Below are positions 45,265 through 51,209 of a stretch of DNA of 64,000 nt, one piece after another; position 1 is the stretch's first letter, and each line of letters starts with the position of its first letter. The DNA is from Methanococcoides vulcani (GTDB lineage: Archaea > Halobacteriota > Methanosarcinia > Methanosarcinales > Methanosarcinaceae): assembly GCF_900111645.1 (NCBI RefSeq), contig NZ_FOHQ01000001.1, positions 62,001 to 126,000 of the forward strand, given 5' to 3'. The translations under genes and the position numbers were made by a program. The notes under the pieces were generated by a model. The model did not search any database. It was given only the letters and a program-made list of their open reading frames with translations, and was not told the origin of the DNA.

Positions 45265-45424
45265 AGTTCTTTAAACCAGGCTTTTCCATAATTCAACCCT
45301 CCAGTTATTCTCTCCTCTCCCCTTCTTTATCTATATACTCTATTTATTCTACAGTCCTATCTATATTCTATCCAGACAAGCTCTATATATCCCAATGTCT
45401 ATTCCTCGCCTGAGGGTCGTGAAA

Positions 45425-45910
45425 ATGGCTCCTCCTTCAGGCAACATTATGATAGACAATACAAAAGTATTTAGAAAAATAATCGATTCAATAACGACCC
45501 TTGTCCTGTACATCCTTCTCCTGACACTGGTCGTTGGAATGGCTAAAACAGTGCTGGACCTGAGGTTCACTATATTCTCATCTCTGGATGTTGGTTTTAA
45601 TCACATGGTCTCCAGTGTCCTCACGATCTTCATACTGATCGACCTGTTCAACACTTTTGTAGATTACCACGAGCATGAGCGCATCAAACTGACATACGTT
45701 ACTGACGCCACCATCCTGATCGTGATGCGCGAGATCGCTGTGGGCATGTACGCAAAGGAGTTCGAGTCCGGATTCATCCTTGCTCTTGCAGCACTGATAC
45801 TGGTACTTGGAATTGTGCGTGTGCTTGCGATCAGGTATTCACCTGAGGACCTGCATGATATTGTGCCATCATTTATGACCGGAAAGCAAAAAGAAACAGG
45901 AAATGAATGA
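45425..45910 (+). CDS. PsiE-like four-helix membrane protein
   Basis: About 161 aa with four membrane helices (ITTLVLYILLLTLVVGMA, MVSSVLTIFILIDLFNTFV, ATILIVMREIAVGMY, ILALAALILVLGIVRVLAI), like the phosphate-starvation-inducible PsiE family. I use the ATG at 45425 because a TATA box (CTATATAT, 45382-45389) makes the ATG at 45395 too close to serve; the ATG at 45449 is also possible. Its last about 135 bases recur, altered, at 51063-51209 (see findings). Confidence 0.8.
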   Translation: MAPPSGNIMIDNTKVFRKIIDSITTLVLYILLLTLVVGMAKTVLDLRFTIFSSLDVGFNHMVSSVLTIFILIDLFNTFVDYHEHERIKLTYVTDATILIVMREIAVGMYAKEFESGFILALAALILVLGIVRVLAIRYSPEDLHDIVPSFMTGKQKETGNE

Positions 45911-47184: not shown

Positions 47185-47601
47185 TCAATTTATTTGGGAA
47201 GCCTCTTTTTCAGCTACCTCTTTTATCCTACTGATGATCGACTCCAGTCCATTTGATCTTGCAGGGGAGAGATTTGACTTCAATCCAATTTTGTCAATAA
47301 AATATAGGTCAGCATTTAATATCTCTTGAGGGGCTCGGTTGTTTACTACCTTAGCTACAAGAGCAATGATCCCTTTAGTTATCATCGCATCACTATCGAG
47401 ATCAAAGATCAATTTGCCATCTTTATTATAACTTCTGATCCAAACTTTGGATTGGCATCCGCTGATCGAATTGTCTTCAGTCTTAAACTCTTCATCCATC
47501 GGTTCGAGTTCTTTAGCAAAAGAAATAAGGAGACCATATTTGTCAAACCATTCAAGACCGTCAAATTCTTTTATAATTTCATCCTGAATAGCATCGTTCA
47601 C
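47185..47601 (-). CDS. sufE: SufE-type sulfur acceptor protein
   Basis: 138 aa. The persulfide-accepting cysteine is in NSISGCQSKVWIRS (Cys49), and the family features EEFKTEDNSISGCQS and SNLSPARSNGLESIISRIKEVA are intact. SufE takes sulfane sulfur from SufS and hands it on. It overlaps sufS by 4 bp and is the fourth gene of the eanB-eanA-sufS-sufE unit, where I infer it carries sulfur to the rhodanese rather than, or as well as, to Fe-S assembly. No SufBCD is nearby. Confidence 0.9.
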   Translation of the reverse strand: MNDAIQDEIIKEFDGLEWFDKYGLLISFAKELEPMDEEFKTEDNSISGCQSKVWIRSYNKDGKLIFDLDSDAMITKGIIALVAKVVNNRAPQEILNADLYFIDKIGLKSNLSPARSNGLESIISRIKEVAEKEASQIN

Positions 47602-48779
47602 TTGTACATCATCTCTACTTTATTTATTCCTTCAACCAGCATGTCAACATCTTCTTTTGTATTATACAATGCAAAACTTGCTCTCACTGTGCCTTCTACT
47701 CCGAGGAATCTCATCAGTGGCTGGGCACAATGATGTCCGGTCCTGACAGCAACCCCCATCTTGTCTAATATCAATCCTGTATCATAATGGTGAATATTGT
47801 CCAGATTGAATGAGACAGCTCCGCACATCTCATTAGTATTTCCATAAACTGTCACAATATCCATTTCCAGCAGTTTATCTCTTGCGTAGGAATGGACATC
47901 ATGCTCATGCTTTTTTATTTTATCCATGCCTATTTTTTGCATGTGATCAATTGCTGCACCGATACTTATTGCTCCTGCAATATCTGGTGTGCCTGCTTCA
48001 AACCTCAAAGGAGGATCTAGATAAGTTGTTTTTTCAAGACTTACTTTATCAACCATGCCCCCTCCGCCTATTGCCGGCATAATATCACTGAAGCGATCGC
48101 TTGTATAAAGCACTCCAACTCCGGTTGATGCATACATCTTATGGCCTGAGAAAGCCAAAAAGTCGCAATCGATGTCTTTTACGTCAAGAGGTAAATGCTG
48201 TATTGACTGGGCTGCATCCACCAGAACCGGGATGTCGTGATCTTTGGCAATTTCAGTGATCTCTTTGATCTCATTTACAGAACCAAGAACATTTGAAACA
48301 TGAGCTATCGCTATCAATTTTGTTTTATTCGTGATCTCCATTGAGTCTATCAGCAAATTGCAATCGTCATCCATCGGAATTGCCTTTACTTTTGCTCCTG
48401 CAAGCTGCCATGGTACAATATTTGAGTGGTGTTCCACACCGGTTACCAAAACTTCGTTTCCCCTTAAGGAAGATCCAAGCGAGCGTGCGACCTGATTAAT
48501 GGAACCGGTTGTTCCGGAAGTAAATGTCACTTCACTCGGGTTGCGAGCACCTATGAAGTCACTAACTTTTTTTCTTGCTTCCTCATACCTTTCACTTGAG
48601 ACCTCGCTCAGGTAATGCACGCCCCTATGGATATTACTATAATCTGTCCTATAGAACTCAGATATCGTATCGATCACAGAGTCTGGTTTTTGGGTTGTTG
48701 CTGCATTGTCAAGATAAACCAATCTTTTCCCGTACACCTTTTGTGCAAGTATCGGAAAATCTTTTGCAAAATCTGTCAT
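47598..48779 (-). CDS. sufS: Cysteine desulfurase (SufS group)
   Basis: 393-aa PLP enzyme releasing sulfur from cysteine. PLP lysine in AFSGHKMYASTG (Lys214), cofactor histidine region TGVEHHSNIVPWQ, aspartate in VLVDAAQSIQH, and the short group II catalytic loop with Cys351 in RTGHHCAQPLM. The pairing with SufE fits group II desulfurases, which need an acceptor. It overlaps eanA upstream by 4 bp and sufE downstream by 4 bp. Confidence 0.93.
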   Translation of the reverse strand: MTDFAKDFPILAQKVYGKRLVYLDNAATTQKPDSVIDTISEFYRTDYSNIHRGVHYLSEVSSERYEEARKKVSDFIGARNPSEVTFTSGTTGSINQVARSLGSSLRGNEVLVTGVEHHSNIVPWQLAGAKVKAIPMDDDCNLLIDSMEITNKTKLIAIAHVSNVLGSVNEIKEITEIAKDHDIPVLVDAAQSIQHLPLDVKDIDCDFLAFSGHKMYASTGVGVLYTSDRFSDIMPAIGGGGMVDKVSLEKTTYLDPPLRFEAGTPDIAGAISIGAAIDHMQKIGMDKIKKHEHDVHSYARDKLLEMDIVTVYGNTNEMCGAVSFNLDNIHHYDTGLILDKMGVAVRTGHHCAQPLMRFLGVEGTVRASFALYNTKEDVDMLVEGINKVEMMYK

Positions 48780-49738
48780 CTTTTCACCATTTCAACAAGA
48801 GAGAACCATTTTTTATCATCGCTAAAGATATTCTCTACGGAAAGCCCTGCAGCCTCTGCCATTTTTTTGATACCATCAACAGTATATTTGTGAGAATTTT
48901 CTGTGTGGATCATCTCTCCTTTTTTGAAGATTATTTTCTCATTTAATATGGGGCTTGCTACTTCCTGATCTGTTTTTGCTTTCAGGTGCATCTCGATCCG
49001 GGAATATTCCCTGTTGAAGAATGCAACATGCTCAAATTCCTCCGGATCAAAATCGGTCTCAAGATGATCATTTGCAACCTTCAATATGTTCTTATTGAAT
49101 TCTGCAGTGATCCCCTGGCTATCATTGTAGGCTTTCTCGATGATGCCAATATCTTTTACCATATCCACTCCAAGGAGAAGCCTATCGTTCTCATTCATGA
49201 CCTTGCCGAGATCTGCCATGAATTCAATTGCTTTTTCTTCAGTAAGATTGCCGTTTGTGCTTCCGAAGAAACAGAAGAACCTTTTTCTTTTTCCCGGAAT
49301 CTTTTCAATATGCTCAAGGAAGTCAGCAGTAATACCATGGATTCCCATTTCGGGATATTTATCCTGAAGGTTACAGGCAGATTTCTCTATAGAATCTTTG
49401 CAGACGTCAACTGGATAGTATACTATAGTCTGACGAATCTCTCTTGGCACTTCATCGAGAAATACTGAAATTTTAGAACAGTCCCCACTTCCAAGCTCCA
49501 CAAGATCGCTTTCTTCCAGCTCTTGTTTCAATTTTTGAGCAGTTGACCTAAGCAATGGGATCTCGATCTTTGAAGAATAGTATTCTTCTAACTTAGTGAT
49601 CTTCTCATACAATTCGGATCCATGATGGTCGTAGAAGAACATGGAAGGAAGTGTTTTAGGATCTGATCTCAGGCACGCTGCTAGTTTTTCCCTAATGGAA
49701 CTATCTCCGATCTTTGGCATGAAATCTTCTATGATCAT
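48776..49738 (-). CDS. eanA: Histidine N-alpha-methyltransferase (EgtD/EanA-like)
   Basis: 320-aa SAM-dependent methyltransferase of the EgtD family, which trimethylates histidine to hercynine. Seen: the family N-terminal signature FFYDHHGSELYEKITKLEEYY (residues 34-54, in two blocks), SAM motif VELGSGDC (80-87), YYPVDVCKDSIEKSA, RFFCFFGSTNGNL and DRLLLGVDMVKD. There is no FGE-type EgtB sulfoxide synthase beside it. Instead the rhodanese gene upstream (4-bp overlap) matches the anaerobic EanB enzyme. Other trimethylated-histidine products cannot be excluded. Confidence 0.85.
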   Translation of the reverse strand: MIIEDFMPKIGDSSIREKLAACLRSDPKTLPSMFFYDHHGSELYEKITKLEEYYSSKIEIPLLRSTAQKLKQELEESDLVELGSGDCSKISVFLDEVPREIRQTIVYYPVDVCKDSIEKSACNLQDKYPEMGIHGITADFLEHIEKIPGKRKRFFCFFGSTNGNLTEEKAIEFMADLGKVMNENDRLLLGVDMVKDIGIIEKAYNDSQGITAEFNKNILKVANDHLETDFDPEEFEHVAFFNREYSRIEMHLKAKTDQEVASPILNEKIIFKKGEMIHTENSHKYTVDGIKKMAEAAGLSVENIFSDDKKWFSLVEMVKR

Positions 49739-50997
49739 TGTTTGGGTACTCCCCTTTCAGAAGGAAGATCGTTATTGCTCCATTCAAGCCATCCACCATC
49801 ATAGACTGCTGCTTTATCCCAGCCCATAAGCCATGCGTTAAAGAAAGCTTCACTACCCCTCCAGCCTGTTCCGCAGTAGAATGCGTTGCGCTTTTCGGGA
49901 ACAATTCCGATCTTCTCCCAAATTTCTGCAACTTCCTGAGCTTCGCTCATGGTATGATCCAGGTTCCTGTAGTTTTCCATGTGGTAGGCATCTGTTCCGC
50001 AATCTCCGAATACTGCTCCCGGGATCCTTCCCTTCTCCTCAATATAATGATAACCACTTACTTCTCCAATGTATTCTCTCCAGCTTCTAATGCACACCAG
50101 GTTTTTGTCAGGAGAGGAAAGGATCTCTTTTGCTTCTTCAAGATCAACAAGAATTTCCGGTTTTTGAGGAATGTCAATTCCAAAAGATACTTTATTATTT
50201 TTAGCAGGATCCTTGGTGATCTCATAACCTGAATCAAGCCATGACTGAATACCGCCATTAAGTATGCGAACATCTTTTACGCCGGCATAAAGCATGATGA
50301 ATGCGCACCTCATTGCACCCAGATGGCCTGCGCTGCTTCCTGGAAACGGATCATCATTATTTGGTGAGGAGAATCTTCCATAAAGAATGACTGTGGTATC
50401 ATGTGTTATGCCTGCATTTTCCAGGACTTCCTTTAGTTCTTCAGGCGAGCGGCGATTCCATGTGTCCTCATATTCAAGGGAGTTGGTGTCAATAGATATT
50501 GCTCCCGGAATATGCCCTTTCTCATAATCGGAAGGGTTCCTGTAGTGAGAATGACATAACACGAACTTATTATTGTTATATTCCGGCGCGTTATTTGTAG
50601 TGATCAATTGATCGAGCCAATCCGCTGAGACCAGTTGACTGTATCTTTCAAGATGTTCCATGGGTAGATCTTTTTCCGCCCATTCAAGAAAAGAGTTGAA
50701 AACAGTTACATCAGGGTAGCCGGCCTTTTCAAATTGCCTTGCCACTTCTTCTGTTTTATGCATGTCATACCCATAAATGACCAGAGGATCTTCCGGCAGA
50801 ATTCCTTTATTTCTGACGATCTCTATCCAGTCAATATAGTGTAACCATTTGTACGGTAGCGTTTTTGCACCTTTTATGTGTCCGCCTCTTGCCTCTCCAC
50901 CTTCCTTCCATCCATTATAAGCATCAATAGGCCTGATATCAATTACCTTATACTTATGCAAGTTTTCAGCTAATTCTTTAGTTGTAATTTCCCCCAT
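49735..50997 (-). CDS. eanB: Triple-rhodanese sulfurtransferase, probable ergothioneine synthase (EanB-like)
   Basis: 420 aa in three rhodanese-like domains (about 5-115, 120-255, 285-412). Only the last has a catalytic cysteine loop, YCGTGWRG (Cys375). From memory, Chlorobium EanB uses Cys412 with Cys184, Cys339, Cys370, Tyr353 and Thr414. Here Cys302, Cys333, Cys375, Tyr316 and Thr377 all fall at a constant offset of 37, and Cys148 at 36. EanB puts sulfur from polysulfide directly onto C2 of trimethylhistidine without oxygen. First gene of a four-gene unit with 4-bp overlaps throughout; AATAATATAATAATTAAG lies in the 5' region as a possible TATA. Confidence 0.85.
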   Translation of the reverse strand: MGEITTKELAENLHKYKVIDIRPIDAYNGWKEGGEARGGHIKGAKTLPYKWLHYIDWIEIVRNKGILPEDPLVIYGYDMHKTEEVARQFEKAGYPDVTVFNSFLEWAEKDLPMEHLERYSQLVSADWLDQLITTNNAPEYNNNKFVLCHSHYRNPSDYEKGHIPGAISIDTNSLEYEDTWNRRSPEELKEVLENAGITHDTTVILYGRFSSPNNDDPFPGSSAGHLGAMRCAFIMLYAGVKDVRILNGGIQSWLDSGYEITKDPAKNNKVSFGIDIPQKPEILVDLEEAKEILSSPDKNLVCIRSWREYIGEVSGYHYIEEKGRIPGAVFGDCGTDAYHMENYRNLDHTMSEAQEVAEIWEKIGIVPEKRNAFYCGTGWRGSEAFFNAWLMGWDKAAVYDGGWLEWSNNDLPSERGVPKQ

Positions 50998-51062
50998 ACA
51001 ATATAATTTATCTTAATTATTATATTATTGTTTGGGATTTGACATTGTAATAATCCTTAGAT

Positions 51063-51209
51063 GCCGGATTCATCCTTGCTCTTGCAGCATTGATACTGGT
51101 ACTGGGAATCGTGCGTAGGCTTGCGATCAGGTATTCTCCGGAGGAACTGCATGATCTTGTACCATCATTTATGACCGGGAAGCAAAAAGGAAATGGTGAA
51201 AGCACATAA
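51063..51209 (+). pseudogene. 3'-end fragment of a second psiE copy
   Basis: Reads AGFILALAALILVLGIVRRL then AIRYSPEELHDLVPSFMTGKQKGNGEST and TAA, and matches the psiE 3' end (45768-45903) with about 11 differences in 125 bases by eye. There is no start or N-terminal part. It lies 65 bases upstream of eanB (opposite strand) and directly before the decayed integrase, so together with psiE it brackets the 45.9-51.0 kb block. Confidence 0.85.

Follow-up and report, generated by a model that had tools for sequence, protein, structure and literature searches.

The window analysed here, a 64,000-nucleotide stretch of Methanococcoides vulcani (contig NZ_FOHQ01000001.1, positions 62,001 to 126,000, in a genome assembly of 2.3 Mb), carries four minus-strand genes that run from 50997 to 47185 in the order eanB, eanA, sufS and sufE (Table 1). 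We predict that they form an operon for the anaerobic synthesis of ergothioneine, in which the sulfur would be drawn from cysteine by the operon's own desulfurase and acceptor. At all three junctions the stop codon of one gene and the start codon of the next share 4 bp (ATGA, ATGA and GTGA, in that order); both the open reading frame coordinates and the junction letters agree with the first-pass annotation, which had been made from the sequence alone and had described four genes overlapping by 4 bp throughout. The nearest named relatives of the EanB come from Methanococcoides (94% identity to M. seepicolus), which would in itself place the host among the methylotrophic methanogens of this genus or of one very near to it.

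Table 1. Operon genes and flanking repeats, in window coordinates
Feature	Coordinates	Strand	Evidence or remarks
eanB, ergothioneine synthase of three rhodanese domains, 420 aa	49735..50997	-	phmmer, AlphaFold/Foldseek, active-site columns; Cys375 catalytic with Tyr316, Thr377, Arg380
eanA, EgtD-type histidine N-alpha-trimethyltransferase, 320 aa	48776..49738	-	TIGR03438; histidine-binding Y36, Y53, N164, Y204, E280, S282
sufS, type II cysteine desulfurase, 393 aa	47598..48779	-	TIGR01979; RTGHHC; HHYDTGLI; operon clade
sufE, sulfur acceptor (transpersulfurase), 138 aa	47185..47601	-	PF02657; Cys49, Arg115; operon clade
136-bp direct repeat, copy 1, end of a 171-aa gene (45395-45910)	45761..45896	.	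far side of the operon region
136-bp direct repeat, copy 2, directly upstream of eanB	51057..51192	.	remnant of the end of the 45395-45910 gene

Identity of the four proteins

A domain search matches the Rhodanese domain three times in EanB, far beyond chance. With phmmer the protein scores 571 bits against the EanB of Chlorobium limicola (6ktv; 58-59% identity), 282 bits against YnjE and at most 81 bits against two-domain rhodaneses, and it is thus not closer to the thiosulfate sulfurtransferases than to EanB. Its AlphaFold model (mean predicted local distance difference test, pLDDT, 88.5) finds EanB 6kw0 as the best Foldseek match, with a template modeling (TM) score of 0.95 against 0.88 for YnjE. 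The alignment bears out the spacing of residues that the first-pass annotation had noticed, pairing Cys302, Cys333 and Cys375 with EanB positions 339, 370 and 412, Tyr316 with 353 and Thr377 with 414, and it further pairs Arg380 with Arg417; the point mutants Y353F and T414A in the PDB coincide with the Tyr316 and Thr377 columns. Cys375, Tyr316, Thr377 and Arg380 are without variation across the 77 EanBs compared, and Cys412, the equivalent of Cys375, is the only cysteine required for catalysis according to a review (PMC9103826). Cys302, which had been counted among the retained residues, does not hold up as such: its position is serine in 18 of 33 close EanBs.

EanA passes the NCBIfam EgtD equivalog TIGR03438 (345 bits against a cut-off of 290.9), and its match to Methyltransf_33 likewise reaches 345 bits. 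The residues Tyr39, Tyr56, Asn166, Tyr206, Glu282 and Ser284 of EgtD, whose roles in the histidine site are known from the mycobacterial enzyme (PMC8593015), are all retained as those listed in Table 1, and the same columns are fixed across 68 further EanAs, save for one serine-to-cysteine change. The assignment as an EgtD-like histidine methyltransferase, which a loss of histidine-binding residues would have called into question, is thereby established. A second EanA-like group (L126, L142, L152, L165 and others; 30-33% identity) retains the histidine pocket as well, with mostly serine in place of methionine at EgtD position 252.

SufS scores 514 bits with TIGR01979, over the cut-off, and has its catalytic cysteine in RTGHHC and the pyridoxal phosphate lysine in FSGHKM. 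In its acceptor-recognition helix, HHYDTGLI, the specificity position X is tyrosine, as in the E. coli SufS that partners SufE; SufS enzymes partnered by SufU have histidine there (PMC11408855). The other SufS of the genome, on contig C8, has histidine at this position and is of the SufU type. SufE matches PF02657 with 142 bits, and its Cys49 and Arg115 correspond to Cys51 and Arg119 of E. coli SufE, so that these matches and key residues confirm the names given to both proteins on first reading. It is the only SufE of the genome. The sole SUFBD match of the genome lies on contig C9 and the operon on C5; no SufBCD gene is found near the operon, and the locus is thus not a SUF iron-sulfur (Fe-S) assembly operon in the sense of sufB or sufC together with sufS and sufE.

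Distribution and inheritance of the linked genes

Among 186 genomes of the order, EanB is found in 29 and SufE above the cut-off in 30, including all 29 with EanB. The thirtieth (G125) has sufE and sufS plus a partial eanA inside which the contig ends, and none of the remaining genomes of the 186 has an intact SufE. Three genera contain members with and without EanB; those without it also lack SufE, save for a 30-residue scar in one. The co-occurrence is significant (Fisher p = 4e-33, a naive value inflated by shared ancestry). Orthologs of the operon SufS (at least 75% identity) follow the EanB genomes, while SufS proteins at 40-45% identity are general.

Two Methanococcoides genomes without EanB carry remnants near the syntenic ydjM gene: in G092 (L184 1-430) the 30-residue sufE scar, in G094 (L224 237-401) the initial 54 residues of eanB. 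Because these scars differ, the operon appears to have been lost whole at least twice in this genus. In M. vulcani the 5.3 kb that contain the operon are bracketed by the two copies of the 136-bp direct repeat, 89% identical and separated by 5296 bp, and recombination between them could remove the operon. By eye, the G092 scar follows the apparent 3' part of a tRNA gene. Just upstream of eanB in the window are a tyrosine-recombinase fragment (PF00589; 51636-51920) and an archaeal phage integrase (PF16795; 52481-53503).

Contigs from 84,980 species were scanned for EanB and gave 80 loci, in which the same gene set recurs in about ten phyla besides that of the methanogens, mostly with the order kept. 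The survey for the four-gene order that had been suggested at the outset recovered eanB-eanA-sufS-sufE in the Methanosarcinaceae and in seven other groups: Phycisphaerae, Thermoplasmatales, Aminicenantes, Omnitrophota, Syntrophomonadaceae, Elusimicrobia and Fibrobacter. In a deltaproteobacterial bin the order is eanA-eanB-sufS-sufE, and a bin of the Chitinivibrionales has eanB-sufS-sufE. At seven further loci (Caldithrix, two Gemmatimonadetes, Ignavibacteriales and others) sufE follows straight after eanB and there is no sufS; six of them have no eanA nearby and one has eanA upstream. The open-frame lengths at the survey loci give no sign of an EanB-SufE fusion, although no systematic search for fusions was made. 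When 18 other genomes were searched whole, 17 had no SufE besides the linked one (for G199, among these 18, the linked SufE was taken from the gene-order survey of the locus). Caldithrix has a second, weak SufE match beside another rhodanese; its locus L306 (4281-5630) encodes a two-domain rhodanese and then a divergent SufE, resembling the SseA-Rv3284 pair of Mycobacterium tuberculosis. Seventeen loci, most of them from Bacteroidota (L119, L121, L125, L129, L142, L152, L164 and others), have a 94-aa DUF427 gene (PF04248) near eanB.

In trees, each of the three linked proteins forms a single clade: SufE (31 rows; support 100/99), SufS (26 rows; Shimodaira-Hasegawa-like approximate likelihood ratio test, SH-aLRT, 99) and EanB (33 rows; SH-aLRT 99). 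The SufS and EanB trees are quick trees; background sampling is limited throughout, and no root was inferred. The linked SufE and SufS are both separate from their counterparts in EanB-bearing Bacteroidota and in Thermoplasmatota, and the linked SufE also from the unlinked SufE of Omnitrophota. Within the Thermoplasmatota, the linked SufE is distinct from the many SufE genes of genomes without EanB. Four Omnitrophota SufE genes lie in contexts other than eanB loci, and the tree places all of them outside the linked clade. The EanB of Chlorobium also falls outside its linked clade, in a set of 44 EanBs of the kind that lacks adjacent sufS or sufE; the flanking genes of L279, the nearest to it on the EanB tree, stand in for its own. 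On a simple reading, a single cassette would have been assembled once and then moved between phyla, including into the archaea.

The two kinds of EanB are separated by columns that are fixed in the SufE-linked proteins (Asn299, Asn371, Leu128 and Pro217), which may reflect ancestry alone, as only two clades are compared. No cysteine distinguishes the linked EanBs, because the position of Cys302 is serine in about half of either group and both groups contain Cys333 and Cys148. A sulfur relay through extra cysteines of EanB was rejected on these grounds.

Sulfur supply to EanB

In the route that we propose, EanA would trimethylate histidine to hercynine, SufS would take sulfur from cysteine and keep it as a persulfide on the cysteine of its GHHC motif, and SufE would accept this sulfur on Cys49 and pass it to Cys375 of EanB. 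The resulting persulfide, assisted by Tyr316, Thr377 and Arg380, would place the sulfur onto C2 of the hercynine imidazole. The EanA and Cys375-persulfide steps are drawn from the established chemistry of EanA and EanB. The phylogenetic profile, the gene order across phyla and the separate clades together point to SufS-SufE as the sulfur source; the two belong to a subfamily that was inherited with EanB and is separate from the iron-sulfur machinery. We therefore consider it likely that the operon makes ergothioneine anaerobically, with sulfur from cysteine fed to EanB through its own SufS-SufE pair. The first-pass annotation had gone further, suggesting that a dedicated desulfurase and acceptor replace free polysulfide by a protein persulfide. 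The dedication of the pair to EanB and EanA is supported by the profile, gene order and clades; the replacement of polysulfide fits less well with the tunnel that leads to the buried cysteine of EanB.

For the last step of delivery, direct transfer from SufE to EanB, protein to protein, has about an even chance, and we hold it and a small carrier nearly level. Direct transfer is favoured by the loci with sufE beside eanB and no sufS, and by precedents in which a sulfur-transfer protein serves a rhodanese: the SufE-like Rv3284 of M. tuberculosis binds and activates the rhodanese SseA (PMC12375888), and in Arabidopsis the desulfurase ABA3 feeds STR18 (PMC8931425). A broader proposal falls just short of even, namely that there are two kinds of EanB, that of Bacteroidota and Chlorobium without a linked supply and that of methanogens, Thermoplasmata and some ten bacterial phyla, on which a dedicated SufE would dock and hand over its persulfide.

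Several points weigh against these proposals. Chlorobium EanB works on polysulfide alone, and the 13 Angstrom tunnel that leads down to its Cys412 has been argued to exclude the persulfide of a desulfurase and to admit polysulfide (PMC9103826, citing Cheng 2020); because the cysteine is buried, direct docking of SufE is uncertain. None of the Bacteroidota-clade EanB loci with sufficient flanks has sufS or sufE adjacent, and the linked partners are therefore not needed by EanB as such. Clades of linked proteins would also be expected from one ancestral cassette and do not of themselves prove an interaction. Most bacterial members of the linked group are metagenome bins, and the ergothioneine pathway of M. 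vulcani itself is a prediction from its genes.

The strongest alternative, to which we give somewhat less than an even chance, keeps SufS-SufE as the supplier and makes the supply indirect: a diffusible persulfide or polysulfide would enter the narrow tunnel, and SufE and EanB would form no complex. The tunnel favours such a small carrier, as do the observations that IscS-driven reactions gave polysulfide and that K2S4 was the best donor (PMC9103826), and the active site of the M. vulcani EanB is the same as that of the Chlorobium enzyme. Against this, SufS-SufE normally shields its persulfide from release (PMC11408855), the M. tuberculosis pair shows that a SufE-like protein can bind a rhodanese, and the seven loci without sufS suit a SufE that is a partner of EanB better than one that activates SufS.

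It is far less probable that SufS and SufE serve general sulfur needs, such as Fe-S clusters or tRNA thiolation, and are merely co-located with eanBA. It is for Fe-S assembly that both families are best known, and location alone is not function. However, EanB-less relatives, including those of the same genera, lack SufE, which is thus not needed for their Fe-S assembly; SUFBD and another SufS are encoded elsewhere in the M. vulcani genome; and the linked clades are distinct from the SufE and SufS of EanB-bearing Bacteroidota and Thermoplasmatota. The profile of 186 genomes in particular disfavours a general Fe-S role. Least probable of all is a YnjE-like protein or thiosulfate sulfurtransferase whose pathway yields another thiolated or methylated histidine, since the three-domain fold common to YnjE is outweighed by an EanB score twice as high, by the invariant equivalents of Tyr353, Cys412, Thr414 and Arg417 and by the intact EgtD histidine pocket of EanA.

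Relation to known systems and implications

A 2020 report described EanA and EanB homologs in M. vulcani and other methanogens, at a time when no ergothioneine had been detected in archaea (PMC7278568), so that the methanogen route, which the first-pass annotation had singled out, is not in itself new. The chemistry is likewise known in kind. The C. limicola system has the same EanB fold and catalytic residues and an EgtD-type EanA in the same cluster; its EanB belongs to the clade whose loci lack sufS and sufE, and its reported donor is polysulfide, whereas SufS-SufE is in the operon here. MES of Caldithrix abyssi is also oxygen-independent and takes cysteine sulfur through a built-in desulfurase (PMC9516567), but it fuses a metallopterin module to a NifS/IscS-like desulfurase where the operon has a rhodanese and encodes SufS and SufE as separate proteins. 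The catalytic cysteine of SufS, its tyrosine at position X and the Cys51/Arg119 equivalents of SufE are shared with the SUF pair, from which the operon differs in having no SufBCD nearby, in being inherited with eanB and in occurring in methanogens only alongside eanB. The SseA-Rv3284 pair likewise has a SufE-type protein encoded next to a rhodanese on which it acts (PMC12375888); SseA, however, is a two-domain thiosulfate sulfurtransferase with no hercynine chemistry, and the pair has no SufS. Our literature search found no paper linking EanB with SufS or SufE; the founding EanB papers were outside that search, and a prior mention is possible. The SufS/SufE-linked EanB pathway is a real, widespread and apparently undescribed variant, new in its sulfur supply.

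The physiological sulfur donor of EanB has been debated: IscS was used first and polysulfide argued for later, in each case with a single green sulfur bacterium. Members of this group are sulfide oxidisers, and this one makes polysulfide anyway. A dedicated supply from cysteine to EanB makes the question of the donor directly testable. The linked SufE is a subfamily whose role apparently lies outside Fe-S assembly, which cautions against taking SufE in archaea for a marker of Fe-S assembly. From the distribution of the operon, ergothioneine would be expected in about a dozen phyla, and in methanogens among them, and, if SufE does dock on EanB, an Fe-S cluster protein would have been repurposed for the biosynthesis of a small molecule.

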